Source of the DNA: Microbispora hainanensis
GTDB lineage: Bacteria > Actinomycetota > Actinomycetes > Streptosporangiales > Streptosporangiaceae
NCBI RefSeq assembly: GCF_036186745.1
Contig: NZ_CP108086.1
Span: 6,076,001 to 6,140,000 of the forward strand
DNA length: 64,000 bases
Direction: 5' to 3'
Position 1 is the stretch's first letter. Each line of letters starts with the position of its first letter. The position numbers and the translations under genes are program-made. A model generated the notes under the pieces. It was not told the origin of the DNA. It saw only the letters and a list, made by a program, of their open reading frames with translations, and did not search any database. Shown here piece by piece: positions 8,578 to 23,997 of this stretch.

Positions 8578-9052
8578 GACCGGAAGGACGACGACTGAGG
8601 TCCTCGACCGGCCCGAGGTCGCGGGTCCACGTGCCGAGCACGAGCAGGGTCTTGGTGCCGGTCACGTCGCCCGCGCGGCGCAGGCGGTCGATGACCTGCT
8701 GGAGGTGCCCGAGGTCGCGGACCCGGACGTGGATGAGCGCGTCCGGGTCTCCGGCGATGGTGAACACCTCCTGCACCTCCGGCACGTCCGTGGCGGTACG
8801 GACGATCTTGCCGACCGGGGTCGTGCCCGGATAGCGCAGCTCGGTGAACGCCTCGATGCCCCAGCCGAGCTTGGCGTAGTCGATCCGCACGGTGAAGCCC
8901 GTGATGACGCCGATCTCCCTCAGGCGGTCGACCCGCCGCTTGACGGCGGCCACCGACAGGCCGATCTCGGCGGCCATCTCGGAGAACGTCCTGCGCCCGT
9001 CCTCGCGCAGCAGGCGCAGCAGCCGGTGGTCGATGTCGTCGATCTCCGCCAT
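8564..9052 (-). CDS. Lrp/AsnC family transcriptional regulator
   Basis: This 162-residue protein has an N-terminal winged helix (residues about 5-60: IDHRLLRLLREDGRRTFSEM, AAVKRRVDRLREIGVITGF) and a C-terminal RAM/AsnC effector domain (about 70-150). That is the normal feast-famine architecture sensing amino acids. It is divergent from the indolepyruvate ferredoxin oxidoreductase gene, 163 bp away. By analogy with Lrp-type regulators next to amino-acid catabolic genes, it probably controls that operon in response to an aromatic or branched-chain amino acid. The ligand is inference. Confidence 0.9.
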   Translation of the reverse strand: MAEIDDIDHRLLRLLREDGRRTFSEMAAEIGLSVAAVKRRVDRLREIGVITGFTVRIDYAKLGWGIEAFTELRYPGTTPVGKIVRTATDVPEVQEVFTIAGDPDALIHVRVRDLGHLQQVIDRLRRAGDVTGTKTLLVLGTWTRDLGPVEDLSRRPSGPTAR

Positions 9053-9215
9053 GGCATCTCCCTCTCCGACCCGCGCCGACGCAAAGAACCGTAGCCGCCC
9101 GAGGCGGACTTCTCCATCTTTTTGCGTCTTATCGGCCGGTTCTCGCGTGATGCTTGCGCGTACGCCCAGAGGGTTGGTGTGCTGTGGGTCACTCCCCGAC
9201 CCCAGGAGGTTCGCC

Positions 9216-12200
9216 GTGTCCAGGCCTCCCGTCACGCTCGACGACAAGTACGCCGCCGAGCGCGGCACCGTGCTGATCTCGGGCGTCCAGGCCCTCGTAC
9301 GGCTGACGCTGGAGCAGCGCCGCCTCGACGCGGAGCGCGGGCTGGACACCCGGGTCTTCGTCTCCGGATATCCCGGCTCGCCGCTGGGCGGGGTCGACCT
9401 GGAGATGGCCAGGGCCGCGCGGTTCCTCGAGGAGGCGGGCGTGGTGGCCCGGCCCGGCCTCAATGAGGAGCTCGCGGCCACGGCGGTCGCGGGCACCCAG
9501 CTCCTCGCCCAGGTGCCGGGCCGCAGGCACGAGGGGGTGACCGGGTTCTGGTACGGAAAGAACCCGGGCCTCGACCGGGCCGCCGACGCGATCCGGCACG
9601 GCAACCTCGCCGGCACCGCGCCGCTCGGCGGGGCGGTGGCGTGGATCGGCGACGACCCCGGCAGCAAGTCGTCGACCGTGCCCAGCTCGTGTGAGCCGAT
9701 GTGCCAGAGCCTGTCGATGCCGCTGCTCGCCCCCGGCTCCGTGGCGGAGGTCGTCGAGCTCGGGCTGCACGCGGTGGCGCTGTCGCGGGCCACCGGCCTC
9801 TGGGCCGGGCTGAAGATCGTCGCCGACGTCGCCGACTCCTCCGCCACCGTCGACCTCGGAGCGTTGCGCGAGACCATCCGCACCGGCGTCCCGGCGCCGG
9901 AACGCGTGGACCGCGGGGCACCGCCCACCCTGGTCGGCCCGGCCTCGCTGGAGGCCGAGCACGACATGCTCACCCGCAGGCTCGGCCTGGCCCGCGCGTA
10001 CGCCCGCGCGCACGGCCTCAACCGGGTGACCCACGACGCGCCGCGGGCCACGACGGGCCTGCTCGCGTCTGGCACCTCCTACGCCGTCGTCCTGCGCGCG
10101 CTCGCCGATCTCGGCCTGGACGAGGCCGCGATGGACCACCTCGGCCTGCGGCTCATCCGGCTCGCCATGCCGTTCCCGCTCGCGTACGACGATCTCGCCG
10201 CCATGACCGACGGGCTCGACCGGGTGCTCGTGGTGGAGGACAAGGTGCCGTTCCTGGAAGGGCACCTCAAGCAGGCGCTGTACGACACCGGTCAGCGTCC
10301 CGACGTCCTCGGCCGGGAACTGCTGACCGCGCGCGGCACGCTCGGCGCGGAGGACGTGGCCGGGGCGCTCGCCACCTGCCTCGGTCCGGACCGCCTTCCC
10401 CGGCAGGCGGCCGTCCTCACGCGCGGCCCGGCCACCGGCAGGGAGAAGCGCCGTCTGCTCCCGCTGGTCGCCGCCCGCACGCCGTACTTCTGCTCGGGCT
10501 GCCCGCACAACGCCTCCACGCGCGCCTCCGACGACACGCTGGTGGGCGCGGGCATCGGCTGCCACGCCATGATCGCCCTGGACGGGAACGGGCGCGGCAG
10601 GCAGGTCGGCATGACGCAGATGGGAGGCGAGGGCGCCCAGTGGTTCGGCCTTGCCCCCTTCACCTCCGACCGCCACTTCACCCAGAACCTCGGTGACGGC
10701 ACCTTCCACCACTCCGGTTCCCTGGCCATTCGTGCCGCCGTCGCGGCCGGCGTCTCGATGACCTACAAGCTGCTCTACAACGACGCCGTGGCGATGACCG
10801 GCGGGCAGCGCGCCGAGGGCCGCCTCGATGTCCCGGCGCTGACGCGGTCGCTGGCCGCCGAGGGCGTGCGCCGGATCGTGGTCACCACGCCGGAGCCGGA
10901 GACCTACCGCGCCGTCCGGCTGGCCCCGATCGCGTCCGTACGGCACCGCGACGATCTCGCGGAGGTGGAGAAGGAGCTCGCCGCGATCGACGGGGTGACC
11001 GTGCTGATCCACGACGATCGCTGCGCGGCCGAGGAACGGCGGCTGCGTAAACGCGGCAAACTGCCCACGCCGACGGCCAGGGTCGTGGTCAACGAGCGGG
11101 TGTGCGAGGGCTGCGGCGACTGCGGGGACGCCTCCACCTGCCTGTCCGTGCAGCCGGTGGAGACCGAGTTCGGCCGCAAGACCCGCATCCACCAGGCGTC
11201 GTGCAATTCCGACCTGAGCTGTCTCAAGGGCGACTGCCCGTCGTTCCTGCTCGTCGAACCAGGTCCCCGGACTTCGCGTCCGGTGCCCGGACCGCCGCCG
11301 GTGACGCTGACCGAGCCCGTGTCGCGCTTCCCGGACCGCTCGGTGCTGCTGCGGATGCCCGGCATCGGCGGCACGGGCGTGGTGACCGTCTCGCAGATCC
11401 TGCAGATGGCCGCCCACCTCGACGGCCTGCACGCCGCCGGGCTCGACCAGACCGGGCTGGCCCAGAAGGGCGGCCCGGTCGTCAGCGACGTGCGGATCTC
11501 GCCGCGGCCGATCACCGGCTCGGTCCGCGCCGCCCGCGGCACCGCCGACGTCCTCGTCTGCTTCGACGTGCTCGGCGCCGCCGCCGACGACACCCTCGCC
11601 GTCGCCGCTCCGGGGCGCACGGTCGCCGTGGTGAACACCGCGATCGTGCCCACGGCCGCCATGGTCACCGGCCGCGCCGCGCTCTCCGGGCCCGGGGACG
11701 CGGTCGCCCGCATCGCGTCGGCCACCGCCTCGGAGGACGTCCTGCACCTGGACGCCGGGGCGCTGTCGGAGGCGTTGTTCGGCGACCACATGCCCGCCAA
11801 CCTCGTGCTCGTCGGCGCGGCCTACCAGCACGGCTGCATCCCGATCTCGGCCGACGCGATCGAGAGCGCCATCCGCCTCAACGGTGGTTCCAGCAGTGCA
11901 GCCGTGGAGCAGAACCTGGCCGCCTTCCGCTGGGGGCGCGCCGCCGTGATCGACCACGAGGCCGTGTCCCGGGCCGCGTTCCCGGCTGTGTCCCGGGCCG
12001 CGTTCGGGGCCGGCTTCCCCCGGCAGGAGACGGCCGCGCCGCCCGTCGCCGACGGGCTGGAGGAGACCCTCGCCGTACGCATCGCCGACCTGACCGGCTA
12101 CCAGAACGCCGCCTACGCCCGCTCGTACGAAAAGGACGTGCGCGAGGTGGCCGCGCTGGCCGCCGAGCGGGCGGGGGAGGAGGCCGGCGCGCGCATCGGG

Positions 12201-12725
12201 CTCGCGTACGCCCGGGGGCTGCACAAGCTCATGGCCTACAAGGACGAGTACGAGGTCGCCCGGCTGCACCTCGACCCGGTGGAACGGGCCCGGCGCGAGC
12301 GGGAGTTCGGCCCCGGGGCCACCGTGTCGGTGCTGCTGCATCCGCCGCTGCTGCGGGCGATGGGCCTCAAGCGCAAGATCAGGCTGCGCCGGTCGGCCGG
12401 GGTCGTGTTCCGCGGGCTGCGGGCCGCCCGCGTGCTGCGCGGCACCGCGTTCGACGTGTTCGGGCACGCCGCCGTCCGCCGGGTGGAGCGTACGCTGGTC
12501 GTGGAGTATCGCGAGCTGATGCGGCGCGCGCTCGACCGGCTCACCCCCGCGACCGCCGCGGCCGTCGCGGAGATCGCCGCCCTGCCGGACCTGATCCGGG
12601 GGTATGAGGACATCAAGCTCGCCCGTGTCGCGGAGTTCCGCGACCGCGCCGCCACCCTTCTCGCCGAGCTGAACGAGCCCGCCCACGAGTCCGCCCACGA
12701 GCCCTTCCTCCAGGAGTCATCGTGA
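9216..12725 (+). CDS. Indolepyruvate ferredoxin oxidoreductase, fused subunits
   Basis: This 1169-residue fused enzyme oxidatively decarboxylates aryl 2-oxoacids (from Trp, Phe, Tyr) to acyl-CoA using TPP, CoA and ferredoxin. The order is: pyrimidine-binding domain starting FVSGYPGSPLGGVDLEMARA, TPP-binding domain near residues 445-530 (GIGCHAMIALDG, QMGGEGAQWFG, YNDAVAMTGGQ), a Cys-rich iron-sulfur segment near 629-672 (VCEGCGDCGDASTC, CNSDLSCLKGDC), and the gamma domain from about 708 (MPGIGGTGVVTVSQILQMAA). The start is GTG 9216 after CAGGAGG. It overlaps the acyl-CoA dehydrogenase by four bases (GTGA), pointing to one degradation operon. Length is normal for the actinobacterial fused form. 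Confidence 0.93.
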   Translation: MSRPPVTLDDKYAAERGTVLISGVQALVRLTLEQRRLDAERGLDTRVFVSGYPGSPLGGVDLEMARAARFLEEAGVVARPGLNEELAATAVAGTQLLAQVPGRRHEGVTGFWYGKNPGLDRAADAIRHGNLAGTAPLGGAVAWIGDDPGSKSSTVPSSCEPMCQSLSMPLLAPGSVAEVVELGLHAVALSRATGLWAGLKIVADVADSSATVDLGALRETIRTGVPAPERVDRGAPPTLVGPASLEAEHDMLTRRLGLARAYARAHGLNRVTHDAPRATTGLLASGTSYAVVLRALADLGLDEAAMDHLGLRLIRLAMPFPLAYDDLAAMTDGLDRVLVVEDKVPFLEGHLKQALYDTGQRPDVLGRELLTARGTLGAEDVAGALATCLGPDRLPRQAAVLTRGPATGREKRRLLPLVAARTPYFCSGCPHNASTRASDDTLVGAGIGCHAMIALDGNGRGRQVGMTQMGGEGAQWFGLAPFTSDRHFTQNLGDGTFHHSGSLAIRAAVAAGVSMTYKLLYNDAVAMTGGQRAEGRLDVPALTRSLAAEGVRRIVVTTPEPETYRAVRLAPIASVRHRDDLAEVEKELAAIDGVTVLIHDDRCAAEERRLRKRGKLPTPTARVVVNERVCEGCGDCGDASTCLSVQPVETEFGRKTRIHQASCNSDLSCLKGDCPSFLLVEPGPRTSRPVPGPPPVTLTEPVSRFPDRSVLLRMPGIGGTGVVTVSQILQMAAHLDGLHAAGLDQTGLAQKGGPVVSDVRISPRPITGSVRAARGTADVLVCFDVLGAAADDTLAVAAPGRTVAVVNTAIVPTAAMVTGRAALSGPGDAVARIASATASEDVLHLDAGALSEALFGDHMPANLVLVGAAYQHGCIPISADAIESAIRLNGGSSSAAVEQNLAAFRWGRAAVIDHEAVSRAAFPAVSRAAFGAGFPRQETAAPPVADGLEETLAVRIADLTGYQNAAYARSYEKDVREVAALAAERAGEEAGARIGLAYARGLHKLMAYKDEYEVARLHLDPVERARREREFGPGATVSVLLHPPLLRAMGLKRKIRLRRSAGVVFRGLRAARVLRGTAFDVFGHAAVRRVERTLVVEYRELMRRALDRLTPATAAAVAEIAALPDLIRGYEDIKLARVAEFRDRAATLLAELNEPAHESAHEPFLQESS

Positions 12726-13861
12726 CCGTCGACCGCCTGCTGCCCGGCGAGGACGCCCGGGACCTCATCGACCTGACCCGTGAGATCGCAGACAAGGAGC
12801 TCGCCCGCCGCGTCGACGAGCACGAGCGCGCGGAGACCTATCCCGAGGGCCTGTTCGCCACGCTCGGCGCCGCCGGGCTCCTCGGCCTGCCCTACCCGGA
12901 GGAGTACGGCGGCGGAGGCCAGCCGTACGAGGTGTATCTGCAGGTGCTCGAGGAGCTGGCCGCCCGGTGGGCCGCCGTCGCGGTCGCGGTCAGCGTCCAC
13001 ACGCTCTCGTGCCTGCCCCTGGCCGTGTACGGCACGCCGGAGCAGCGGGAGCGCTGGCTGCCCGACATGCTCGCCGGGCGGCGGATCGGCGGCTACAGCC
13101 TGTCGGAGCCCCAGGCCGGGTCGGACGCGGCGGCCCTGACCTGCAAGGCCGAGAAGACGGAGGGCGGCTACCGGATCACCGGCACCAAGGCGTGGATCAC
13201 CCACGGCGGCCTGGCGGACTTCTACGCGCTGTTCGCCCGCACCGGCCCCGGCCAGCGCGGCGTCTCCTGCTTCCTCGCCCCCGGTCACGCCGACGGCCTG
13301 ACCTTCGGCCGCCCCGAGGAGAAGATGGGCCTGCACGCGATCCCCACCACCACCGCCCACTGGGACGGCGTGCTGATCGACGCCGACCGCCTCATCGGCG
13401 AGGAGGGGCAGGGCCTGCCCATCGCCTTCGGCGCGCTCGACTCGGGCAGGCTGGGCATCGCCGCCTGCGCCGTCGGCCTCGCCCAGGCCGCGCTCGACGA
13501 GGCCGTGGCGTACGCCAAGGAGCGCGAGACGTTCGGCAAGAAGATCATCGACCATCAGGGGCTCGGGTTCCTGCTCGCCGACATGGCCGCCGGGGTGGAC
13601 TGCGCCCGGGCGACCTATCTCGACGCGGCCCGCCGCCGCGACGCCGGCCTGCCGTACAGCAGGCAGGCCAGTGTCGCCAAGCTCGTCGCGACCGACACCG
13701 CGATGCGGGTCACCACCGACGCGGTCCAGGTCTTCGGCGGGTACGGCTACACGCGCGAGTTCCGCGTCGAGCGCTACATGCGCGAGGCTAAGATCATGCA
13801 GATCTTCGAGGGCACCAACCAGATCCAGCGCCTCGTCATCAGCCGCCATCTCGCCCGCTGA
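12722..13861 (+). CDS. Acyl-CoA dehydrogenase
   Basis: This 379-residue flavoenzyme introduces an alpha,beta double bond into an acyl-CoA and passes electrons to ETF. Family blocks are clear: YSLSEPQAGSDAAALTC (FAD/substrate), KAWITHGG, and near the C-terminus QVFGGYGYTREFRVERYMRE and MQIFEGTNQIQRLVISRHLA, which holds the catalytic Glu (FEGT). GTG overlaps the preceding stop, so it is translationally coupled to the oxidoreductase and probably uses the acyl-CoA it makes. Which chain it prefers (isobutyryl-, isovaleryl- or aryl-acyl-CoA) is not visible. Confidence 0.93.
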   Translation: MTVDRLLPGEDARDLIDLTREIADKELARRVDEHERAETYPEGLFATLGAAGLLGLPYPEEYGGGGQPYEVYLQVLEELAARWAAVAVAVSVHTLSCLPLAVYGTPEQRERWLPDMLAGRRIGGYSLSEPQAGSDAAALTCKAEKTEGGYRITGTKAWITHGGLADFYALFARTGPGQRGVSCFLAPGHADGLTFGRPEEKMGLHAIPTTTAHWDGVLIDADRLIGEEGQGLPIAFGALDSGRLGIAACAVGLAQAALDEAVAYAKERETFGKKIIDHQGLGFLLADMAAGVDCARATYLDAARRRDAGLPYSRQASVAKLVATDTAMRVTTDAVQVFGGYGYTREFRVERYMREAKIMQIFEGTNQIQRLVISRHLAR

Positions 13862-15917: not shown

Positions 15918-17000
15918 CTAAGACGCGAGCGACTCGTACAGCGCGATGTGCCGTTCGGCGGCGGCCTGCCAGGTGTGCCGGGCGGCCAGCTCCCGCCCCG
16001 CCGTACGCCTGCGGGGATCGGGGGAGGCGAGGGCGTCGGCGAGCTCGTCGGCGAGCCCGGCGGGCGTGACGGCGAAGCGCGCGGCGCAGCCGAAGACCTC
16101 ACGCAGGACCGGCAGGTCGCGCATCACCAGCGGGACGCCCGCCGCCAGGGCCTCCATCGCGGCGAGGCCGAAGCCCTCCTTCACCGACGGGAAGGCGAAG
16201 GCGGCGGCGCCCGCAACGAGCGGCGGCAGTTCCGCGTCGGGGACCGGGCCGAGCACCAGCGGCTCGACGCCCAGCTCCGCCGCCCGCGCATCCCACCGCG
16301 CCCGGTAGTCGCGGTAGTCGAAGAGCGTCTCGCCTCCGGCGATCACCAGCCGGATGTCCGGGCGCGCGTCCCGCAGCAGCGCGTACGCCTCCAGCAGGTC
16401 GAGCGAGCCCTTGCGCGGCTCGATGCCGCCGACCGTCAGCACGTAGGCGCCCAGCCACCCGCGCCACCGCGCGACGGCCGCCGGGTCGGCGGACGCGAAG
16501 CGCTCGTACGCCACGCCGTTGGGGATCACCGTCGCCGCGATGTCCCACCCGGCCTTGAGCTCGGCCGCCACCGCCTCCGACACGCAGACGTGCGCGTACG
16601 GCGTGACGATGGCGCGCTCGTGACAGACGGCCAGCTCCGTGGTGGTGAAGTGGTCCACGTGGTGAACCGTCCGCACGCAGTGGCCCGCCGCGTTGGCGCT
16701 GATGCAGTCCTGGGCGTGCACGACGTCATAGGAGGCCGCCTCCGCGGCGAACGCCCCGCGCAGCACCGCGATCGACCGCAGCACCCGCGGCCCGACGCCC
16801 TCCCCGGGGATGTCGGGGAACGGCACGACGCGCAGCCGGACGGCGGGATCGACCGGGCGGAAGAAGCCGGAGTCGCCGCCCCGGCCGAGCGTCCACACCG
16901 TCACGTGCTGTCCCGCCGCCGCGAGCGCCTCGGCGAGGGCGAGGGTGTGCACGACCCCGCCGCGTGGCCGGGTCGAGTAGCTGAGCAGGGCGATTCTCAC
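15918..17000 (-). CDS. GT4 glycosyltransferase, MSMEG_0565 family
   Basis: This 360-residue GT-B enzyme starts MRIALLSYSTRPRGGVVHTL, the glycine-rich acceptor loop of family 4 transferases. It carries VVHAQDCISANA and, in the nucleotide-sugar-binding half, TVGGIEPRKGSLDLLEAYAL and PSVKEGFGLAAMEALAAGVP (the EX7E motif). Its resemblance is to the MSMEG_0565-type transferases that accompany nitrilase/nitrogen-starvation clusters. GTG 17000 overlaps the stop of the degenerate nitrilase (GTGA). It presumably glycosylates the product or a carrier made by this cluster; donor and acceptor are unknown. Confidence 0.88.
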   Translation of the reverse strand: MRIALLSYSTRPRGGVVHTLALAEALAAAGQHVTVWTLGRGGDSGFFRPVDPAVRLRVVPFPDIPGEGVGPRVLRSIAVLRGAFAAEAASYDVVHAQDCISANAAGHCVRTVHHVDHFTTTELAVCHERAIVTPYAHVCVSEAVAAELKAGWDIAATVIPNGVAYERFASADPAAVARWRGWLGAYVLTVGGIEPRKGSLDLLEAYALLRDARPDIRLVIAGGETLFDYRDYRARWDARAAELGVEPLVLGPVPDAELPPLVAGAAAFAFPSVKEGFGLAAMEALAAGVPLVMRDLPVLREVFGCAARFAVTPAGLADELADALASPDPRRRTAGRELAARHTWQAAAERHIALYESLAS

Positions 17001-17833
17001 GCACGCACCTCCCGGTAGACGCCCGGCCTGCGCTCGTGCAGGTGATGGAGGATCCGCCGGGCGCGGTCGATCTCGGCGGCGACGTCGAGCTCGGCCACCG
17101 CCAGCCCGGCCTTCGACCAGGTGCGGGCGAGCACGTCGCCGCCCGGCCCGACGACCTTGGCCTGGCCGAGGAACCGCATGCCGCCCATCACCCCCGTCTG
17201 GTTGGAGGAGGCGAGCACGACCTGGTTCTCGGCGGCGCGCGCCTGGTCGTACAGGTCGAACAGCCGCGACTGCCGGTCCTGGGCCATCCGGGGCGCGCGG
17301 TTGGTGACGCTGGCGGGCCAGGCCGACAGGCAGGCCAGGATCTGCGCGCCGTCGAGCGCGAGGCTGCGGGCCGACTCGGGGAAGGTCTTGTCGTAGTCGA
17401 TCAGCATGCCGATCCGCCCGGCCGGGGTGTCGAAGGCGTCGAACCGCTCGCCCGGGGCGTAGGCCGCGGTCTCGCCCGCGGGCAGGTGCACCTTGCGGTG
17501 CAGGCCGAGCACACCGTCGCCGCTGACGCACACCGCCGCGTTGTAGCGGACGTCGCCGCCGTCCTCGCAGAAGCCGACGCACACCACCATCTCGGCGGCC
17601 AGCGCCGCCACCCGCGCGATCGCCGGGTCGTCCGGCTTCAGCGCGGGCGGCAGCGCCTCGGGGTCCGGCCTGCGCAGGTCGGCGAGGTAGCCGCCGAGCG
17701 CGGCGTCGGGCAGCACGAGCAGCCGGGCGCCCGCGGCTCGGGCGTCGCCGATCAGCTTGGCGATGCGGGCCAGGTCGAAGGCGAGGTCGCGGCCGAAGTG
17801 GGCGGCCGCCGCGGCGATCCGCAGAACGCTCAC
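16997..17833 (-). CDS. Degenerate nitrilase homologue (probable pseudoenzyme)
   Basis: This 278-residue member of the carbon-nitrogen hydrolase fold is collinear with the active nitrilase beside it. Active nitrilases use Glu-Lys-Cys. Here position 43 reads LPDAALGGY (Asp for Glu), position 114 keeps HRKVH (Lys), and position 146 reads GMLIDYDKTFPE (Asp for the nucleophile Cys; codon GAC at 17398-17396). The frame is otherwise open, well conserved and without internal stops, so it appears maintained rather than decayed. GTG 17833 overlaps the stop of the active paralogue. I infer a structural or regulatory partner in a mixed nitrilase oligomer; a different chemistry is possible. Confidence 0.88.
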   Translation of the reverse strand: MSVLRIAAAAAHFGRDLAFDLARIAKLIGDARAAGARLLVLPDAALGGYLADLRRPDPEALPPALKPDDPAIARVAALAAEMVVCVGFCEDGGDVRYNAAVCVSGDGVLGLHRKVHLPAGETAAYAPGERFDAFDTPAGRIGMLIDYDKTFPESARSLALDGAQILACLSAWPASVTNRAPRMAQDRQSRLFDLYDQARAAENQVVLASSNQTGVMGGMRFLGQAKVVGPGGDVLARTWSKAGLAVAELDVAAEIDRARRILHHLHERRPGVYREVRA

Positions 17834-18684
17834 CCCGCGAGCCCCGCCGTGCCGTACGCCGTCCCGTATGCCTCCGGCCGGCGGTCGCGCAGATGGCCCA
17901 TCGACCGGCGCGCGGTCTCCAGCGCCCGCGGCACGTCGATCTCGGCGACGGCCATGCCCGGCCCGACGCCCGTGGCCGAGACGATCTCGCCGCCGGGGTC
18001 CACGACCTTGGCGCTGCCGACGAAGCGCAGCGACCCGAACGTCCCGGCCTGGTTGGCAGACAGCCACACGATCTGGTTCTCCAGCGCCCGCGCCCGGTCG
18101 AACAGGTCGAAGCGCCGCTTCCAGCGGTCGCGCTCCAGATCGGGTGCCGCGTTCGTCCGCGAGCCCGGCCAGGCCGACACGCACACCCCGATCTGCGCGC
18201 CGTCGAGGGCCAGCGCGCGGGCGGCCTCCGGGAACGCCTTGTCGTAGCAGATCATCATGCCGATCCTGCCGACGGGCGTGTCGAAGGCATGGAAGCCGTC
18301 GCCCGAGGCGTAGCTGGCGTTCTCGCCGAGCGGCTGGTGCACCTTGCGGTGGTTGCCCAGCACGCCGTCGCCGCTGACGCACACCACGCTGTTGTAGCGG
18401 GCGTCGCCGCCGTCCTCGCAGTAGCCCGCGATCACGACCATGTCACCGGCCAGCGCGGCCAGCCGCCGGATCTCCGGGCCGTCCACGGCGAGCGGGGGCG
18501 GCCCGGCGTCGGCGGCGTCGCCGTCCAGGCTGAGCAGGTAGCCGCCGAGGCACGCCTCGGGCAGCGCGAGGAGCCGTACGTCCTCGTTGCGGGCCTCCTT
18601 GACGAGGCGTTCGACGATCGCGACGTCCTCGCCGAGGTCGCGGCCGAACGCGGCGGACACCGCCGCCATGCGCAGGGCGCTCAC
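17830..18684 (-). CDS. nitC: Nitrilase of Nit1C type (sll0784/Nit6803-like)
   Basis: This 284-residue cytosolic carbon-nitrogen hydrolase has the full triad: Glu43 in LALPEACLGGY, Lys114 in GNHRKVHQPLGEN and Cys146 in GMMICYDKAFPE. It hydrolyses a nitrile to acid and ammonia, or an amide. Context with radical SAM, GNAT/AIRS and MSMEG_0572-type genes places it with the nitrilases of Nit1C clusters, which published work links to nitrogen starvation and to growth on cyanide. GTG 18684 overlaps the stop of the upstream fusion gene, and its own stop overlaps the degenerate paralogue, so equal expression of the pair is likely. Confidence 0.9.
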   Translation of the reverse strand: MSALRMAAVSAAFGRDLGEDVAIVERLVKEARNEDVRLLALPEACLGGYLLSLDGDAADAGPPPLAVDGPEIRRLAALAGDMVVIAGYCEDGGDARYNSVVCVSGDGVLGNHRKVHQPLGENASYASGDGFHAFDTPVGRIGMMICYDKAFPEAARALALDGAQIGVCVSAWPGSRTNAAPDLERDRWKRRFDLFDRARALENQIVWLSANQAGTFGSLRFVGSAKVVDPGGEIVSATGVGPGMAVAEIDVPRALETARRSMGHLRDRRPEAYGTAYGTAGLAG

Positions 18685-20126
18685 GCGGTCCCCAATCCGG
18701 TCACCGGGCCGCCGACGGCCTCCGTGACCTCTCCGTCGGGCCAGCGCAGCGAGACGCCGCGGCCGGTGGTCAACTCCCCGCACACCGCCGAGACGGCCGG
18801 TCCCGCCGGGGGCGCGGACGCGCCCGGCTGGTCCGCCGTGAGCATCGCGAAGCCGGGGAAGCAGGTGAGCCAGTCGCCCATGGAGGCGGCCGCCGGGCGC
18901 GGCACCGCGGCCACGTCCAGCACGGCCGCGCAGCCGCCCGCCTCGGCCAGCATGCCGAGCGTGCCGGCGATCCCGGCCATCGACACGTCCTTGGCGGCGG
19001 CGGGGCGGCCGGCCGCGACCGCGCCGAGCATCGCCCGCAGCTCGTCCGTACGCCGGGAGGTGGTCGAGTCCCATTGGCGGCCCCGATATCCGGCGCGCCA
19101 GCCGCCGCCGAGGTCGGCCGTGAGGCGCACGGCGTGGCCGGGGCGTCCGCCGCCGCCCGGCACGGGACGCGCGGCGCGGCCGAGGGCCGTCACCGACAGC
19201 GCGGCCGGCACCCCGAGCTGCGTGTGCCCGCCGAGCACCGGCACCCCGTACGCGCGGGCGGCCCGCGCCAGGCCGTCCAGCACCCGGGCGGCGTGCGCGG
19301 CGCCGGGGGCGGCGAGCGCGTCGAGCAGCCCCACCGGGGCGGCGCCCATCGCGGCCAGATCGTTGAGGTTGACCAGGACCGAGCACCAGCCTGCCCATTC
19401 CGGGTCGCGTTCGACCATGGACGGCACGATGGCGTCGCAGGCGGCGACCAGGTCGCCCCCGGGCACCGGCGCAGCGTCGTCGCCGACGAAACCCGGGCCG
19501 CCCAGGGCGTGCGGGCCCTGCCCGGCGAGGACGGCGAGCAGCGGCCCGAGCGCCGACTTGGCCGCTGCCGCCTGTCCCTCGATCCGGCCGATCGGGTGGC
19601 GCATCAGCACGTGCGGCGCACCCGCGACCGTCACCGGCCGCACCCGGGCCCAGCCGAGGCGGCGGAAGAACGCCTCGGCCCTGACCTGCACGGTCGCCTC
19701 GAACCGCAGCACGCCCTCCGCCTCGGCGCGGGCGCAGGCGGCCCGCACCAGCGCCGCGCCCACCCCCATGCCGCCAGATCCACGCGCCGCGACCAGCCGC
19801 CCGCCCGTCCACCAGCCGATGTCGGGGCCGTCGCAGGCCGGTCCGAGCCGAACGCCGCCGACCACCGTGCCCGCCGCGTCCCTGGCCACCAGCGTGATCG
19901 TGCGGGGATCGTCGTCCCTGTCGTCGAGGTCGTGCCCTTCGAACAACCCCTGCTCCCGGACGAACGCCTCGTGCCGCAGCCGCCGGTAGGCCCGGACGGC
20001 GGCGGCGTCGGCCTGCTCGATCCGGATGGGCGGCCGCCGGGCCAGCGTGCTGCGGTCGCCGAGCAACGCGAGGATGTCCTGCGCCTCTTCCCGTGCAGGC
20101 GCCTGGGTGTCGCCGTCGAGGAGCAT
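18681..20126 (-). CDS. GNAT acetyltransferase-AIR synthase-like fusion (MSMEG_0567 family)
   Basis: This 481-residue protein fuses two parts that are separate genes (sll0786/sll0787; nitE/nitF) in many Nit1C clusters. Residues about 33-180 are a GNAT fold (IEQADAAAVRAYRRLRHEAF, acetyl-CoA loop GGMGVGAALVRAACARA). Residues about 190-480 resemble the PurM/AIR synthase ATP-binding fold (FVGDDAAPVPGGDLVAACDA, LVNLNDLAAMGAAPVGLLDA). It probably acylates and then cyclises or phosphorylates the cluster metabolite; the reaction is not established. The start is ATG 20126, 7 bp after the radical SAM stop. Confidence 0.86.
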   Translation of the reverse strand: MLLDGDTQAPAREEAQDILALLGDRSTLARRPPIRIEQADAAAVRAYRRLRHEAFVREQGLFEGHDLDDRDDDPRTITLVARDAAGTVVGGVRLGPACDGPDIGWWTGGRLVAARGSGGMGVGAALVRAACARAEAEGVLRFEATVQVRAEAFFRRLGWARVRPVTVAGAPHVLMRHPIGRIEGQAAAAKSALGPLLAVLAGQGPHALGGPGFVGDDAAPVPGGDLVAACDAIVPSMVERDPEWAGWCSVLVNLNDLAAMGAAPVGLLDALAAPGAAHAARVLDGLARAARAYGVPVLGGHTQLGVPAALSVTALGRAARPVPGGGGRPGHAVRLTADLGGGWRAGYRGRQWDSTTSRRTDELRAMLGAVAAGRPAAAKDVSMAGIAGTLGMLAEAGGCAAVLDVAAVPRPAAASMGDWLTCFPGFAMLTADQPGASAPPAGPAVSAVCGELTTGRGVSLRWPDGEVTEAVGGPVTGLGTA

Positions 20127-20133
20127 CGTCGCC

Positions 20134-21198
20134 TCACCCGCCCGCCGCGCTCAGCACGCCGCACGCCCCGCACGCGGCGCAGCCCGCCCCCTGGTCCGCG
20201 CCGCGCATGCCGGCCGCGCGCAGCAGCGCCGCCACACCCTCGGTGACGTACGTCAGCAGGCCGGCATCGGGGGCGCCGATCCCGTCACGGGCCGCGAGCG
20301 TGCCCCGCATCGGGCGGAACGGGACCACGAAGGGGTAGACACCCCGCTGGATGAGACGGCCCGCGCCCGCGATCAGCTCGTCGGGGTCCTCACCCAGCCC
20401 CACCAGCAGGTACGTCGAGACGCGGTTGCGCCCGAACACCCGGACCGCCTCGTCCCAGGCGGCCTCGTATTCGGCGAGCGGCACCGACGACTTGCCCGGC
20501 ATCCAGCGCCGCCGCACCTCCTCGTCCAGCGACTCCACGTGGATGCCGATCGCGGTGGCCCCGGCCTCGCGCAGCGCGCCGATCCAGGCCAGGTCGCCCG
20601 GCGGCTCGCACTGCACCTGGATCGGCAGGCGCGGCACGGCGTCCAGCACGGCCCGCACGCACCGCGCCAGCGTGCGCGCGCCGCGATCGGGCCCGGTGGT
20701 CGTGCCCGTGGTCATCACCATCTGGCGTACGCCGTCGAGCCGCACCGCCGCCTCCGCCACCTCGGCGAGCTGGGCGGGCGTCTTCGCGGCGACCGTGGCG
20801 CCCGACCGCAGCGACTCCTCGATCGTGCAGAAGCGGCACCGGTCGGCCTCGCCATACCTGATGCACGTCTGCACGACGGTCGTGGCGAGCACGTCCGCGC
20901 CGTGCAGCCGGGCGATCTTCTCGTACGGCACGCCGTCCGCGGTGGTCAGGTCGTAGAACCTCGGCCGCCGCACGGGCACCAGGGAGACCCCGGTGTCCTG
21001 GTCGCCGAGCCAGACCATGCCGTCGCGCACCGTGTAGGGGCTGCCGGGATCGATGGGCAGCGCCGCGCCCACGCCGTCGACCAGGACGTGGCCGTCGCCG
21101 CTGGGCCCCGCGCCGTCCGGCCGGCGTACGGGCGTGTCGAAGGCCACGCCGCGCAGGGCCAGCTCGGCGCGGGTCATGATCCGCAGATCGACGGTCAC
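20134..21198 (-). CDS. nitD: Radical SAM protein, MSMEG_0568 family
   Basis: This 354-residue protein contains a TIM-barrel radical SAM core from about residue 100. The cluster-binding cysteines appear as TCIRYGEADRCRFC, spaced CX8CX2C rather than the common CX3CX2C. A second Cys group near the C-terminus (GCAACGACG) may bind another metal or cluster. VMTTGTTTGPDRGARTLARC and IGIHVESLDEEVRRRWMPGK fit SAM-binding strands. It would generate a 5'-deoxyadenosyl radical to modify the cluster substrate. The start is GTG 21198, 4 bp after the preceding gene's stop. Function beyond the family is unknown. Confidence 0.88.
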   Translation of the reverse strand: MTVDLRIMTRAELALRGVAFDTPVRRPDGAGPSGDGHVLVDGVGAALPIDPGSPYTVRDGMVWLGDQDTGVSLVPVRRPRFYDLTTADGVPYEKIARLHGADVLATTVVQTCIRYGEADRCRFCTIEESLRSGATVAAKTPAQLAEVAEAAVRLDGVRQMVMTTGTTTGPDRGARTLARCVRAVLDAVPRLPIQVQCEPPGDLAWIGALREAGATAIGIHVESLDEEVRRRWMPGKSSVPLAEYEAAWDEAVRVFGRNRVSTYLLVGLGEDPDELIAGAGRLIQRGVYPFVVPFRPMRGTLAARDGIGAPDAGLLTYVTEGVAALLRAAGMRGADQGAGCAACGACGVLSAAGG

Positions 21199-21202
21199 GG
21201 CA

Positions 21203-21718
21203 CTACAGCTGGTAGGTGGAGTTGATGATGGCGCCCTTGCGGGCGTAGTGGATCAGCGCGTCCTGCACGTCGAGCGGGTGGGTGGGGATCACGCCCTCGA
21301 TGAGGTCCTCCTCGCGGGCGCCGTGCAGCGACAGGCCGAACCGGCAGCAGTAGACCTTCCCGCCCTCGGCGATGAACGTCTTGAGCTGGTTGTTGATGTT
21401 GTGCTCGCCAGGGAACGCCGAGTTGCCGGTCGTCGGGAAGCCGCGGGTGGCCAGGCAGTTCAGCGAGCCCGGGCCGTAGAAGTAGATGGCGGTCTCGAAG
21501 CCCTTGCGCAGTGCCCGGGTGGCCTGCAGCACGGCCACGAAGCTGACCGACGACTCGTGCGCGATGCCGTGGACGAGCGTGAAGTACGACTCGCCGTTCT
21601 CGGCCTTGTAGTCGGGGAAGACCTTGGTCGTGCCGTAGATGGTGGAGCCCTCGGGCAGGGACGGGTGGGGGATCTCCTCGATGCTCTTCTTCTCCAGGTC
21701 GGTCATGTCGACGGTCAT
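21203..21718 (-). CDS. nitB: MSMEG_0572/sll0783 family nitrogen-starvation protein
   Basis: This 171-residue soluble protein has no enzyme motif that I recognise. Its sequence (SLPEGSTIYGTTKVFPDYKA, FYGPGSLNCLATRGFPTTG, YCCRFGLSLHGAREEDLIEG) matches my recollection of the sll0783/MSMEG_0572 family, founding members of the Nit1C cluster. In Synechocystis, sll0783 is induced by nitrogen starvation and affects polyhydroxybutyrate. A DsrE-like fold is possible from the Cys-bearing loops. ATG 21718 has AAGGAGA 5 bases upstream and is preferred over the inner ATG 12 bases on. It lies directly before the radical SAM gene. Confidence 0.85.
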   Translation of the reverse strand: MTVDMTDLEKKSIEEIPHPSLPEGSTIYGTTKVFPDYKAENGESYFTLVHGIAHESSVSFVAVLQATRALRKGFETAIYFYGPGSLNCLATRGFPTTGNSAFPGEHNINNQLKTFIAEGGKVYCCRFGLSLHGAREEDLIEGVIPTHPLDVQDALIHYARKGAIINSTYQL

Positions 21719-21746
21719 GTGCTTCTCCTTGCGTAGGTGAGCGGGG

Positions 21747-22574
21747 TCAGGTGTAAAGGGAGGCGAAGGTGCCGCGGAAGACGAGCGCGCCCAGCTCGCC
21801 GTCCCCGGCCGCGGCGCGCATCCGGGCGTGCTCGCCCGCGAAGTCGCCCCACGGCTGGTCACTGGCGAACAGCACGCGGTCGTGCCCGATGCCGCGCCGC
21901 TCGATCTCCCCGGCCAGCCAGTACGGCGCGAAGCCGATGGCCCAGGACAGATCGGTGTAGACGCGTTTGCCGGCCGCGATCCAGTCGAAGAACCGGGAGC
22001 CGGCCAGCTTGATGTGGCCGCTCATCCCGCCGCCGAAGTGCACGAGGTGCACCGGCACGCGGTCGGCGTACCACTCGACCAGGTGTCCGACCTCGTCGAC
22101 GTCCGAGGCGGCGCCGGGCGAGGTGTGCACGTGCACCACCAGCCCGTGGCGTTCGGCGGCGGCGAAGATCCGGTCGAGCCCCGGACGGCAGGCGGGGTCG
22201 GCCGGCCGTCCGCCGAGCAGGAAGCTGAGCTTCAGCGCCCGGACGCCCCGCTCGCCCGCCAGGGCGAGGGCGCGGGTGGTGCGTTCCTCGTCGCGCGGCA
22301 GCGGCGAGACCCACAGCCCCGCGCGGATCCGGTCGTCGGCCTGCGCCGCCTCCAGGACGAGGTCGTTGAGCGCGAAGGCGACCGCCGGGTCGGGCACGCC
22401 GTAGTTGGGCAGCACCAGCGCGCGCTCCGTGCCCTCCGCGTCGAGGTCGGCGATCAGCTGCTTGACCGTGGCCCGCGCGGTCACGTCGGGGTTCACCGCG
22501 GGGCCGCCGTAGAAGGGATGGGCGGGCAGCACGCCGATGTGCCGGTGCGCGTCGCAGATCATGTCGGAGGTCAT
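21747..22574 (-). CDS. Amidohydrolase family 2 metal-dependent hydrolase
   Basis: This 275-residue protein has the metal-site motifs of the amidohydrolase/ACMSD subgroup: CDAHRHIG (HxH) at the N-terminus, VHVHTSPGAASD, HLVHFGGGMSGH and FASDQPWGDF with the late Asp. It would hydrolyse or decarboxylate a cyclic or carboxylated product in the cytosol. It sits between the flavoprotein and the MSMEG_0572-type gene with short gaps, so it belongs to the same transcript. As far as I recall it is not part of the seven-gene Nit1C core, so it may define an actinobacterial variant. Confidence 0.85.
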   Translation of the reverse strand: MTSDMICDAHRHIGVLPAHPFYGGPAVNPDVTARATVKQLIADLDAEGTERALVLPNYGVPDPAVAFALNDLVLEAAQADDRIRAGLWVSPLPRDEERTTRALALAGERGVRALKLSFLLGGRPADPACRPGLDRIFAAAERHGLVVHVHTSPGAASDVDEVGHLVEWYADRVPVHLVHFGGGMSGHIKLAGSRFFDWIAAGKRVYTDLSWAIGFAPYWLAGEIERRGIGHDRVLFASDQPWGDFAGEHARMRAAAGDGELGALVFRGTFASLYT

Positions 22575-22581
22575 CGGCTTC

Positions 22582-23925
22582 TCACCCGACCGGAAGCGCG
22601 GGGGAGAGCTCGGCGGGCGCGCCGGTCAGCGCGCCGCAGACGTCGGCGAGCCGCCGCGACGCCTCGATGTGACCGGCCAGGAACTCGGCGTCCCGGCCCA
22701 CCGCCTCGAACCGGCCGGAGCCCCAGGTGTGCTGCCAGGGCAGACCGAGGAAGTACAGCCCGGGACAGCTCGTCACGCCGCGCCAGTGCATCGGATAGCC
22801 CCGGCCGTCGAAGGCGGGGATCTCGATCCAGCGGTGGTCGCGGGTGAACCCGGTCGCCCAGACGACCGAGGTGATCCCGGCCGCCGCCGGGTCGAGGGCG
22901 CGTACCGGCTCGCCCGGTTCCCACACGGGCACGTAGCGGGGCTCGGCGGGGGCGTCGATGCCGCGATCGGCGATGTACGCGTCGATGGCGTCCTTGATCC
23001 CCTCGGCCACCGCGTCGGCCCTGTCGAGGTTGTCCTTGAGGTCGTCCGCGAACTCCAGCGTGGTGCCGGTGACGCCGGTCAGCCGGCCGTACAGGCGCAT
23101 GCCGTCGCGGGCGAAGGCCCGCAGGTCGATGTCGCGCCCGCCGTCGCGTCCGGTGACGTAGTGGTTGGCCCGCAGGCGTACGGCGTCCGCGTCGTCGAAC
23201 TCGTCGATGGTCCTGGCGTAGTGGCCCATGTCGTGCAGCCACGCCACGCAGTCCCGGCCCCGGTAGAAGCGGGCGACCCGGGGCGCGCTCCCGACGGCGA
23301 GGTGGACCCGCCGCCCGGCCAGATGCAGGTCTTCGGCGATCTGGCAGCCCGACTGCCCGGTGCCGATCACGAGCACCGCGCCCTCGGGAAGTTGTCCGGG
23401 ACGGCGATACCGCGAGGAGTGGACCTGCGTGATCTCCGCGGGCAGCCGCTCGGCCAGGCGGGGTACGGCGGGCGCGTGGTAGGGGCCGGTGGCCACCACG
23501 ACCTGGTCGGCGGTCAGATCCCCGGCGGTGGTCGCGAGCTCGAACGTCCCGCTCGCGGCCCTGCGTAATCGTGTGACGCGCACGCCCTCGGCGAGCGGGG
23601 GACCGAAGGAGGCGGCGTAGTCCTCCAGATAGCGGACGATCTCCTCCCGGACCATGAAACCGTCCGGGTCGGGCCCGCGATAGGGGAAGCCCGGCAGGTC
23701 GCACTGCCAGTTGGGGGTGACCAGGCAGAAGGAGTCCCAGCGGCGCTCACGCCACTCGTGGCCGATCCGCCGTGCCTCGATGACGACATGCTCGATGCCG
23801 CGCCGGCCCAGGCAGTGGCTGATCGACAGCCCGGCCTGGCCGCCGCCGACGACCGCGACCGGATAGTGGGCGCCGGCGATCCGCGGTGTGCCGGCCGGTG
23901 TGCTGGGCTCTGCCGCCGATTCCAT
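22582..23925 (-). CDS. nitH: Flavin-dependent oxidoreductase, MSMEG_0569 family
   Basis: This 447-residue protein binds FAD (YPVAVVGGGQAGLSISHCLG, residues about 21-40) and NADPH (VLVIGTGQSGCQIAEDLHLA, near 187-206), the two-dinucleotide layout of flavin-containing monooxygenases. It is the first gene of the nitrilase cluster. GlnR-like repeats lie 57-72 bp upstream of ATG 23925. Its homologue in Nit1C clusters is called NitH and is thought to oxygenate the substrate; the substrate is unknown. Confidence 0.88.
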   Translation of the reverse strand: MESAAEPSTPAGTPRIAGAHYPVAVVGGGQAGLSISHCLGRRGIEHVVIEARRIGHEWRERRWDSFCLVTPNWQCDLPGFPYRGPDPDGFMVREEIVRYLEDYAASFGPPLAEGVRVTRLRRAASGTFELATTAGDLTADQVVVATGPYHAPAVPRLAERLPAEITQVHSSRYRRPGQLPEGAVLVIGTGQSGCQIAEDLHLAGRRVHLAVGSAPRVARFYRGRDCVAWLHDMGHYARTIDEFDDADAVRLRANHYVTGRDGGRDIDLRAFARDGMRLYGRLTGVTGTTLEFADDLKDNLDRADAVAEGIKDAIDAYIADRGIDAPAEPRYVPVWEPGEPVRALDPAAAGITSVVWATGFTRDHRWIEIPAFDGRGYPMHWRGVTSCPGLYFLGLPWQHTWGSGRFEAVGRDAEFLAGHIEASRRLADVCGALTGAPAELSPALPVG

Positions 23926-23981: not shown

Positions 23982-23997
23982 GTTACCAGTGCGTCAC
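23982..23997. promoter_or_regulatory. GlnR-like box upstream of the nitrilase cluster
   Basis: On the plus strand the sequence is GTTAC-cagtgc-GTCAC; on the operon strand it reads GTGAC-n6-GTAAC. This fits the actinobacterial GlnR pattern gTnAC-n6-GaAAC with one mismatch. It lies 57-72 bp upstream of the first cluster gene. Nitrogen control would suit a nitrilase cluster, but binding is inferred from the pattern alone. Confidence 0.45.

Follow-up and report, generated by a model that had tools for sequence, protein, structure and literature searches.

Why would an operon keep, beside a carbon-nitrogen hydrolase with its catalytic residues in place, a close relative in which the nucleophile has been replaced? 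The question is posed by two open reading frames, here called nit1 and nit2, which run in the same direction on the minus strand at positions 16997-18684 of a 64,000-nucleotide stretch of the Microbispora hainanensis chromosome (contig NZ_CP108086.1; this whole stretch is referred to as the window). Both products score above the gathering threshold of the CN_hydrolase family PF00795 (E = 2.7e-39 for nit1 and 7.5e-34 for nit2), and they are 59% identical to one another. Codons 43, 114 and 146 specify Glu, Lys and Cys in nit1 and Asp, Lys and Asp in nit2, so that the Glu-Lys-Cys (E-K-C) triad is present in the first and absent from the second. A sequence-only reading of this DNA had described two collinear homologues that overlap as GTGA and carry exactly these residues, and both frames, the overlap at 17830-17833 and the residues were confirmed. 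Because TGC becomes GAC only through two base changes, a single sequencing error cannot produce the Asp at position 146 of nit2.

The same division of residues runs through the relatives of the two genes. A residue table was compiled from 261 distinct sequences, 125 labelled nit2 and 134 labelled nit1 by best BLAST match, the other two being pieces of the split nit1 of locus L181; two distant paralogues from the same Microbispora genome (L003 and L004) were excluded from all counts. Every one of the 134 whole nit1 sequences is E-K-C. D146 is found in 124 of the 125 nit2 sequences, as D-K-D in 115, G-K-D in seven, and Q-K-D and H-K-D in one each; the sole exception, L145, is E-K-C and lies outside the nit2 clade defined below.

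Within the genus, 8 of the 15 genomes, the present one included, carry nit2, each together with nit1. Among 200 genomes of the family, nit2 was found in 36 and the pair in 35; in the exception (G046) a 12-kb contig is without the middle of the cluster. A pair that recurs in this way is neither a chance occurrence nor an artefact. At the level of the class (E ≤ 1e-50), 49 of 394 genomes gave a nit-type match, 33 with nit2 and 16 with nit1 only, and 32 of the 33 nit2 genomes also have nit1; the residues of all 33 nit2 copies were read. Genomes with nit2 mostly have nit1 as well, but not vice versa, a one-sided dependence of the kind expected for an accessory subunit. In the phylum survey 9 of 396 genomes matched; a single genome outside the class (G899) bears the pair, as E-K-C plus D-K-D, while E-K-C forms alone were seen in three genomes of family f82 and one of family f61.

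A scan of one genome per species, covering 84,980 species, returned at least 488 candidates. The 80 best nit2 matches were examined, a sample that leans to nit2-like sequences: among these 80 all have D146, and 79 have an intact E-K-C nit1 beside it, the other being L181 with its nit1 in pieces. Microbispora, Streptomyces, Amycolatopsis, Saccharopolyspora, Paractinoplanes, Kutzneria and Lentzea are represented, among others. Streptomyces lincolnensis L4 has nit2 at two separate loci (L156 and L162, 86-87% identical to the query) and so carries two copies of the pair. Four Rhodococcus plasmids also matched, and both that were opened encode E-K-C plus D-K-D. On pLP1 of Rhodococcus qingshengii (L230), a linear plasmid typed mobilizable, the eight-gene cluster is flanked by two IS3 transposase gene copies with the same protein accession, and may move as a unit; both of its CN-hydrolases are annotated 'carbon-nitrogen hydrolase family protein'. 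Because most genomes lack the genes and some plasmids carry them, transfer and loss must have shaped this distribution, and strict vertical descent is not claimed.

The history of the two genes was followed in a maximum-likelihood tree of 91 rows, built from sequences that span at least about 250 residues of the query, with rows at least 84% alike thinned. All 34 rows with D146, the distant G899 copy included, form one clade (support 100/96), and a separate clade of 51 rows (97/91) unites the nit1 sequences of the class with that of G899; the Cys was thus most simply lost once. With the root placed by midpoint only, other E-K-C rows branch off before nit2, which makes E-K-C the older state. 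L145 sits next to L143 and groups weakly with nit1 (86/48). These two loci (genomes G651 and G671, family f82) are E-K-C but have the nit2-like residues Q188, A201, L222 and L262, and are possible relics of the state that preceded loss of the Cys. A tandem duplication special to this genome was rejected, since the genes stand apart in other families and each has its own clade.

nit2 is more strongly conserved than nit1. Medians of the pairwise ratio of nonsynonymous to synonymous substitution rates (dN/dS, NG86 method), computed within genera, were for nit2 and nit1 respectively 0.135 and 0.172 in Microbispora (21 pairs), 0.143 and 0.205 in Herbidospora (6 pairs), 0.128 and 0.133 in Acrocarpospora (10 pairs), 0.152 and 0.165 in Amycolatopsis (36 pairs), and 0.130 and 0.146 in Streptomyces (190 pairs), so that nit2 has the lower median in all five genera. 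When genomes were compared two by two, nit2 was the more similar of the two proteins in 5982 of 6529 cases (median distance ratio 0.78), comparisons that share ancestry and are not independent, drawn from 115 distinct pair-bearing loci after exclusion of 26 pairs in which both proteins exceeded 95% identity. nit2 is therefore old, maintained and under purifying selection. The exchange of two catalytic residues is what a decaying duplicate or a sequencing error might leave behind, but the open frame and D146 persist in several families and even outside the class, in one genome, the nit2 dN/dS medians lie at about 0.13-0.15, and Cys to Asp requires two base changes. With neither relaxed selection nor a restored Cys within the nit2 clade, decay or error was rejected as having virtually no chance of being right. 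The idea of a maintained enzyme-pseudoenzyme-like pair, put forward in the sequence-only reading, stands on D146, the single clade, the low dN/dS and the 35 pair-bearing genomes of the family, and none of the outcomes it had set against that idea (a copy unique to this genome, relaxed selection, or Cys regained in relatives) was found.

What remains of an enzyme in nit2 can be judged from its predicted fold. An AlphaFold2 model of nit2 (mean predicted local distance difference test score, pLDDT, 90.0; predicted template-modelling score 0.90) matches best to MtCPA, the N-carbamoylputrescine amidohydrolase of M. truncatula, and to the Pyrococcus horikoshii amidase PH0642, with a template-modelling score for MtCPA of 0.82-0.85 by query length; this comparison concerns the nit2 model, nit1 being considered as sequence. 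Amidases and carbamoylases make up the majority of the best-matching solved structures, one entry (3ivz) being titled a nitrilase, and the earlier label 'nitrilase' is not supported as it stands. As in MtCPA (5h8i-5h8l) and PH0642 (1j31, 6ypa), nit1 has the E-K-E-C layout, of which nit2 keeps the Lys and the second Glu. That said, identity in the fold alignments is 26-28% and the natural enzymes have their Cys; the Cys-less entries for MtCPA and PH0642 are, by their titles, laboratory variants (C158S and C146A).

Pocket residues of MtCPA (PMC4812014) were mapped by alignment and counted in the 51 nit1 and 34 nit2 rows, with six basal E-K-C rows (L143-L148, L142 excepted) kept out of the nit1 group here and in the comparison of constant-but-different sites. 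Tyr49, Lys114, Pro118 and Lys149 are invariant in both groups; Glu121 is found in 51/51 nit1 and 33/34 nit2 rows, and Tyr147 in 51/51 and 32/34. Against this background the Glu43 of nit1 is Asp in 31/34 nit2 rows and Cys146 is Asp in 34/34, while position 150 is Ala in 48/51 nit1 rows and Thr in 33/34 nit2 rows. At the pocket mouth, MtCPA residues 183, 184 and 187 align to positions 175, 176 and 179, and its Tyr130 falls in a gap. By alignment, then, the nit2 floor is conserved save for the base and the nucleophile, and the mouth has a conserved signature of its own; the model is less sure in the mouth loop (pLDDT 68-72, residues 171-190). Sites 188, 191, 201, 222, 262 and 267 are likewise constant within nit1 and within nit2 but different between them, and of the nine sites of this kind three (188, 191 and 201) fall on the helix spanning residues 187-203, a weak, post hoc point in favour of the partnership proposed below.

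As set out in the cited part of PMC4812014, the attack on the carbon is made in this superfamily by the Cys; the first Glu accepts a proton, the Lys donates one and helps to form the oxyanion hole, and the second Glu assists. With its Cys replaced by Asp, and with Asp, Gly, Gln or His where the base should be, nit2 should not perform this hydrolysis, whereas nit1 would be a working amidase or carbamoylase. The mouth of the MtCPA pocket is walled by neighbouring subunits (PMC4812014), and known functional members of the superfamily are described as dimerising at the A surface (PMC4700190).

The reading that we favour, at a probability of roughly 0.45, is that nit2 serves nit1 as a non-hydrolysing partner subunit, kept in the same pathway. 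An old nit1 paralogue would have lost hydrolytic catalysis once, through replacement of both E43 and C146 by Asp at an early stage of the cluster in actinobacteria, and would have been retained since as a non-hydrolysing component. It would pair with nit1 across the dimer surface used by nitrilase-fold proteins, help to shape the nit1 pocket mouth and hold a substrate-like ligand in its own Cys-less pocket, with the outcome that the activity or specificity of nit1 is tuned. In its favour are the fixed D146 beside an E-K-C nit1, the single clade, the low dN/dS and stronger conservation of nit2, the retained pocket floor, the one-sided dependence on nit1, and the subunit contacts of MtCPA and other functional members. 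Several observations weigh against such a partnership. nit1 does without nit2 in 16 of the 49 matching class genomes. One genome (G231, locus L085, nit2 at 9341-10202) keeps a D43/K114/D146 nit2 with no nit1 match at E ≤ 1e-50, which is unexpected for an obligate partner. In four of five loci of family f4 the two genes are four genes apart, so gene order does not force a partnership. nit2 is the more conserved protein, which also fits a ligand or activity of its own. Finally, the mouths differ, a feature that likewise fits a ligand or activity proper to nit2: site 176 is Arg in 46/51 nit1 rows and Val, Ile or Leu in 33/34 nit2 rows, and site 179, equivalent to MtCPA Glu187, is Arg in 31/34 nit2 rows and Pro or Ala in most nit1 rows. 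MtCPA Glu187 orients the substrate (PMC4812014).

The main rival reading makes nit2 an enzyme in its own right, one with non-cysteine chemistry. D146 would be the nucleophile or the general acid/base, helped by the retained K114 and E121, and the substrate would be a different pathway intermediate. K114, Y49, P118 and K149 in all 34 nit2 rows and E121 in 33, D146 fixed whereas position 43 varies, the mouth signature R179, conservation stronger than that of nit1 and persistence without nit1 in G231 all point this way. However, position 43 is Gly in seven, Gln in one and His in one of the 124 D146 sequences, so that no fixed general base is required at that position, and no nitrilase-fold protein that uses Asp as its nucleophile is known to us, nor do the solved relatives include one that can be recognised by name. 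We regard an independent Asp enzyme as rather unlikely, though the strongest competitor. Less probable still is the larger proposal that nit2 founds an Asp-for-Cys class of nitrilase-fold enzymes, with the Lys and second Glu retained and an Arg at the mouth, in an actinobacterial gpr- or Nit1C-like pathway; acyl transfer, or a lyase or isomerase reaction on what nit1 or the flavoprotein encoded in the same cluster produces, would then be candidate reactions, with the same low likelihood.

The neighbours of nit2 raise a further alternative. In a gene-order table of 58 fetched loci, 37 contain nit1, nit2, the flavoprotein and a radical SAM protein, 36 of them with the glycosyltransferase as well. 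Within the Microbispora family nit1 and nit2 are mostly adjacent. The order nit1-flavoprotein-nit2-glycosyltransferase is found in four loci of family f26, the cluster locus of family f28 and two loci of family f17, and the four f4 loci mentioned above read MSMEG_0572 family-nit1-flavoprotein-radical SAM-GNAT-AIRS-nit2-glycosyltransferase, the order of MSMEG_0572 to MSMEG_0565 in Mycobacterium smegmatis. The flavoprotein accompanies 38 of 42 nit2-bearing loci (two of the other four are cut-off contigs) and 2 of 16 loci with nit1 only. In all eight f17 nit1-only loci examined (L071, L073-L075, L077, L082, L086 and L087) another FAD monooxygenase-like gene replaces it, a frame, matched by eye, that lies between nit1 and the glycosyltransferase and, in L089, between nit1 and nit2.

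nit2 might thus hold or sense a ligand of the pathway without binding nit1, for example as a partner of the MSMEG_0569 flavoprotein. Its position directly after the flavoprotein gene in several families, the co-occurrence just given and the nit2-specific mouth residues 176 and 179 are in favour. Yet 14 of the 16 nit1-only loci come from two f17 genera (g112 and g129) whose seven tree rows form one clade, which leaves few independent events; moreover, nit2 is missing from two loci that do have the flavoprotein (L083 and L084), and in L089 it occurs together with the other monooxygenase-like gene. A tie between loss of nit2 and loss of the flavoprotein holds only partly, given these three loci, and a sensing role apart from nit1 is improbable, a good deal more so than the partner subunit. 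Five sites discriminate the nit1 of nit2-less clusters, three of them (161, 195 and 198) on or at helices behind the nucleophile. This apparent remodelling was not counted, as the seven rows are one clade and the nit2-less L083 and L084 do not show the change.

The sequence-only reading had taken translational coupling as a mark of partnership, and here it does not hold. The GTGA that joins nit1 to nit2 also joins the GNAT-AIRS fusion to nit1 and nit2 to the glycosyltransferase; coupling therefore belongs to the operon as a whole and does not single out the pair, and it was rejected as a sign of stoichiometric partnership. It is absent from loci where the two genes stand apart. Among 110 pairs (loci L099-L128 and L149-L228, not de-duplicated, some genomes being counted twice, with the nearest start codon taken as the start), 54 overlap by 4 bases and 96 have a spacing within -20 to 60 bases.

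To which known system does the cluster belong? The genes of the run are listed in Table 1, in the order of their coordinates; read in the direction of transcription, they are flavoprotein, amidohydrolase, MSMEG_0572 family, radical SAM, GNAT-AIRS fusion, nit1, nit2 and glycosyltransferase, with TIGR04043, TIGR04044, TIGR04045, TIGR04046 and TIGR04050 all over their cut-offs.

Table 1. Features of the nit1-nit2 gene run; coordinates are positions in the window.
Feature	Position	Strand	Remarks
MSMEG_0565 family glycosyltransferase (TIGR04047)	15918..17000	-	GTG start (16998-17000) overlaps nit2 stop as GTGA
nit2, Cys-less paralogue	16997..17833	-	278 aa, GTG start; D43, K114, E121, D146
nit2 codon 146, GAC (Asp), nucleophile position	17396..17398	-	read from sequence
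nit2 codon 114, AAG (Lys), kept	17492..17494	-	read from sequence
nit2 codon 43, GAC (Asp), general-base position	17705..17707	-	read from sequence
GTGA stop/start overlap, nit1-nit2	17830..17833	-	read from sequence
nit1, active-type CN-hydrolase (amidase/carbamoylase-like)	17830..18684	-	284 aa, GTG start; E43, K114, E121, C146
nit1 codon 146, TGC (Cys), nucleophile	18247..18249	-	read from sequence
GNAT + AIR-synthase-like fusion, MSMEG_0567 type (TIGR04045 + TIGR04050)	18681..20126	-	stop overlaps nit1 start as GTGA
MSMEG_0568 family radical SAM protein (TIGR04043)	20134..21198	-	family profile match
MSMEG_0572/Sll0783 family nitrogen-starvation protein (TIGR04044)	21203..21727	-	family profile match
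Amidohydrolase (PF04909)	21747..22574	-	Pfam match
Flavin-dependent oxidoreductase, MSMEG_0569 family (TIGR04046); first of the cluster genes in the run	22582..23925	-	family profile match
GlnR-box-like site, GTGAC-N6-GTAAC, upstream of the flavoprotein gene	23982..23997	-	exact match to the consensus

The earlier assignment to Nit1C proper needs correcting, although the neighbours are indeed homologues of Nit1C genes. Against TIGR04048, the Nit1C nitrilase family, nit1 scores 36.1 and nit2 27.1 bits (cut-off 502.6), and the genome has no match at E ≤ 1e-20. TIGR04042, the MSMEG_0570 family, which we take to be the second small hypothetical protein of Nit1C, has no match in the genome at E ≤ 1e-5. 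A canonical NitC was over the cut-off in 0 of 17 such genomes and below it in 4 of 17. With TIGR04048 absent, the profile matches identify the cluster as the gpr type (MSMEG_0565-0572): the MSMEG_0565, 0567, 0568, 0569 and 0572 families are present together with two CN-hydrolases. Like Nit1C (NitC/Nit6803) in the cited part of PMC1199592, the run has homologues of the first hypothetical protein (MSMEG_0572/Sll0783), the radical SAM protein, GNAT, AIR synthase and flavoprotein; Nit1C differs in its single TIGR04048 nitrilase, its second hypothetical protein of about 100 aa, and its separate GNAT and AIRS genes. In Microbispora two proteins from a different branch of the superfamily are present instead, and one of the two is Cys-less.

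The closer likeness is to the M. smegmatis gpr operon, MSMEG_0565-0572, which has the same gene families and two CN-hydrolase-type genes (PMC6039565); in Microbispora the gene order is changed, no MSMEG_0570 family gene is present and an amidohydrolase is added. MSMEG_0571 is called 'hydrolase, carbon-nitrogen family' and MSMEG_0566 'aliphatic amidase' in the cited passages of PMC4222082, PMC4617892 and PMC6039565, which do not say that either lacks the catalytic Cys. Judged from gene order, which the f4 loci share with MSMEG_0572 to MSMEG_0565, and not from the M. smegmatis residues, MSMEG_0571 should be nit1 and MSMEG_0566 nit2. It has been proposed that the UGA ending MSMEG_0571 is read as selenocysteine, with extension through MSMEG_0569 (PMC6039565). 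In a Microbispora locus (L149) the nit1 stop is TAG and nit2 follows, which speaks against a general recoding. Among the papers listed in literature searches limited to open-licence PMC text, no enzyme-pseudoenzyme pair like nit1/nit2 and no Cys-less subunit of the superfamily was seen; the cited part of PMC11049912 leaves actinobacteria unmentioned.

Expression of the gpr operon is nitrogen-starvation induced and GlnR-dependent (PMC6039565). A further point of likeness is that a GlnR-box-like site also precedes the Microbispora run. The consensus used at 23982-23997 is what we take the GlnR box to be, and the site is a consensus match only. Over the whole window such sites are not enriched (24 with at most one mismatch, 27.4 expected). 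In 5 of 6 Microbispora loci the site has an unchanged location. Counted over all loci, 6 of 73 upstream regions contain such a site, compared with 6 of 1460 random stretches, which suggests the same nitrogen-starvation control as reported for M. smegmatis.

All told, the D146 copies make up a selected Cys-to-Asp subfamily within the nitrilase superfamily, spread across actinobacterial families and Rhodococcus plasmids, whose members database records label 'carbon-nitrogen hydrolase'. The cited part of PMC6039565 suggests that MSMEG_0566 feeds nitrogen assimilation as an amidase, and the pathway of the gpr operon is not established in the cited passages. If MSMEG_0566 is nit2, as gene order indicates, that suggested role needs revising. 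nit1 and nit2 offer a clean test system, within a nitrogen-starvation operon, for either an enzyme-pseudoenzyme partnership or new chemistry on the nitrilase fold.

A few observations concern the wider surroundings. The radical SAM family was found in 54 of 394 class genomes, 48 of them among those with a nit match; the other six have a cluster that is more distant and split, with no nit1 or nit2 match in the stretches fetched. G231 gave no match to the MSMEG_0568 radical SAM family, and the frame next to its nit2 is presumably akin to aldose 1-epimerase. Within the window itself, a large plus-strand frame at 8892-12725 resembles what we take to be an indolepyruvate ferredoxin oxidoreductase, and an acyl-CoA dehydrogenase (Pfam) at 12722-13861 overlaps its end.

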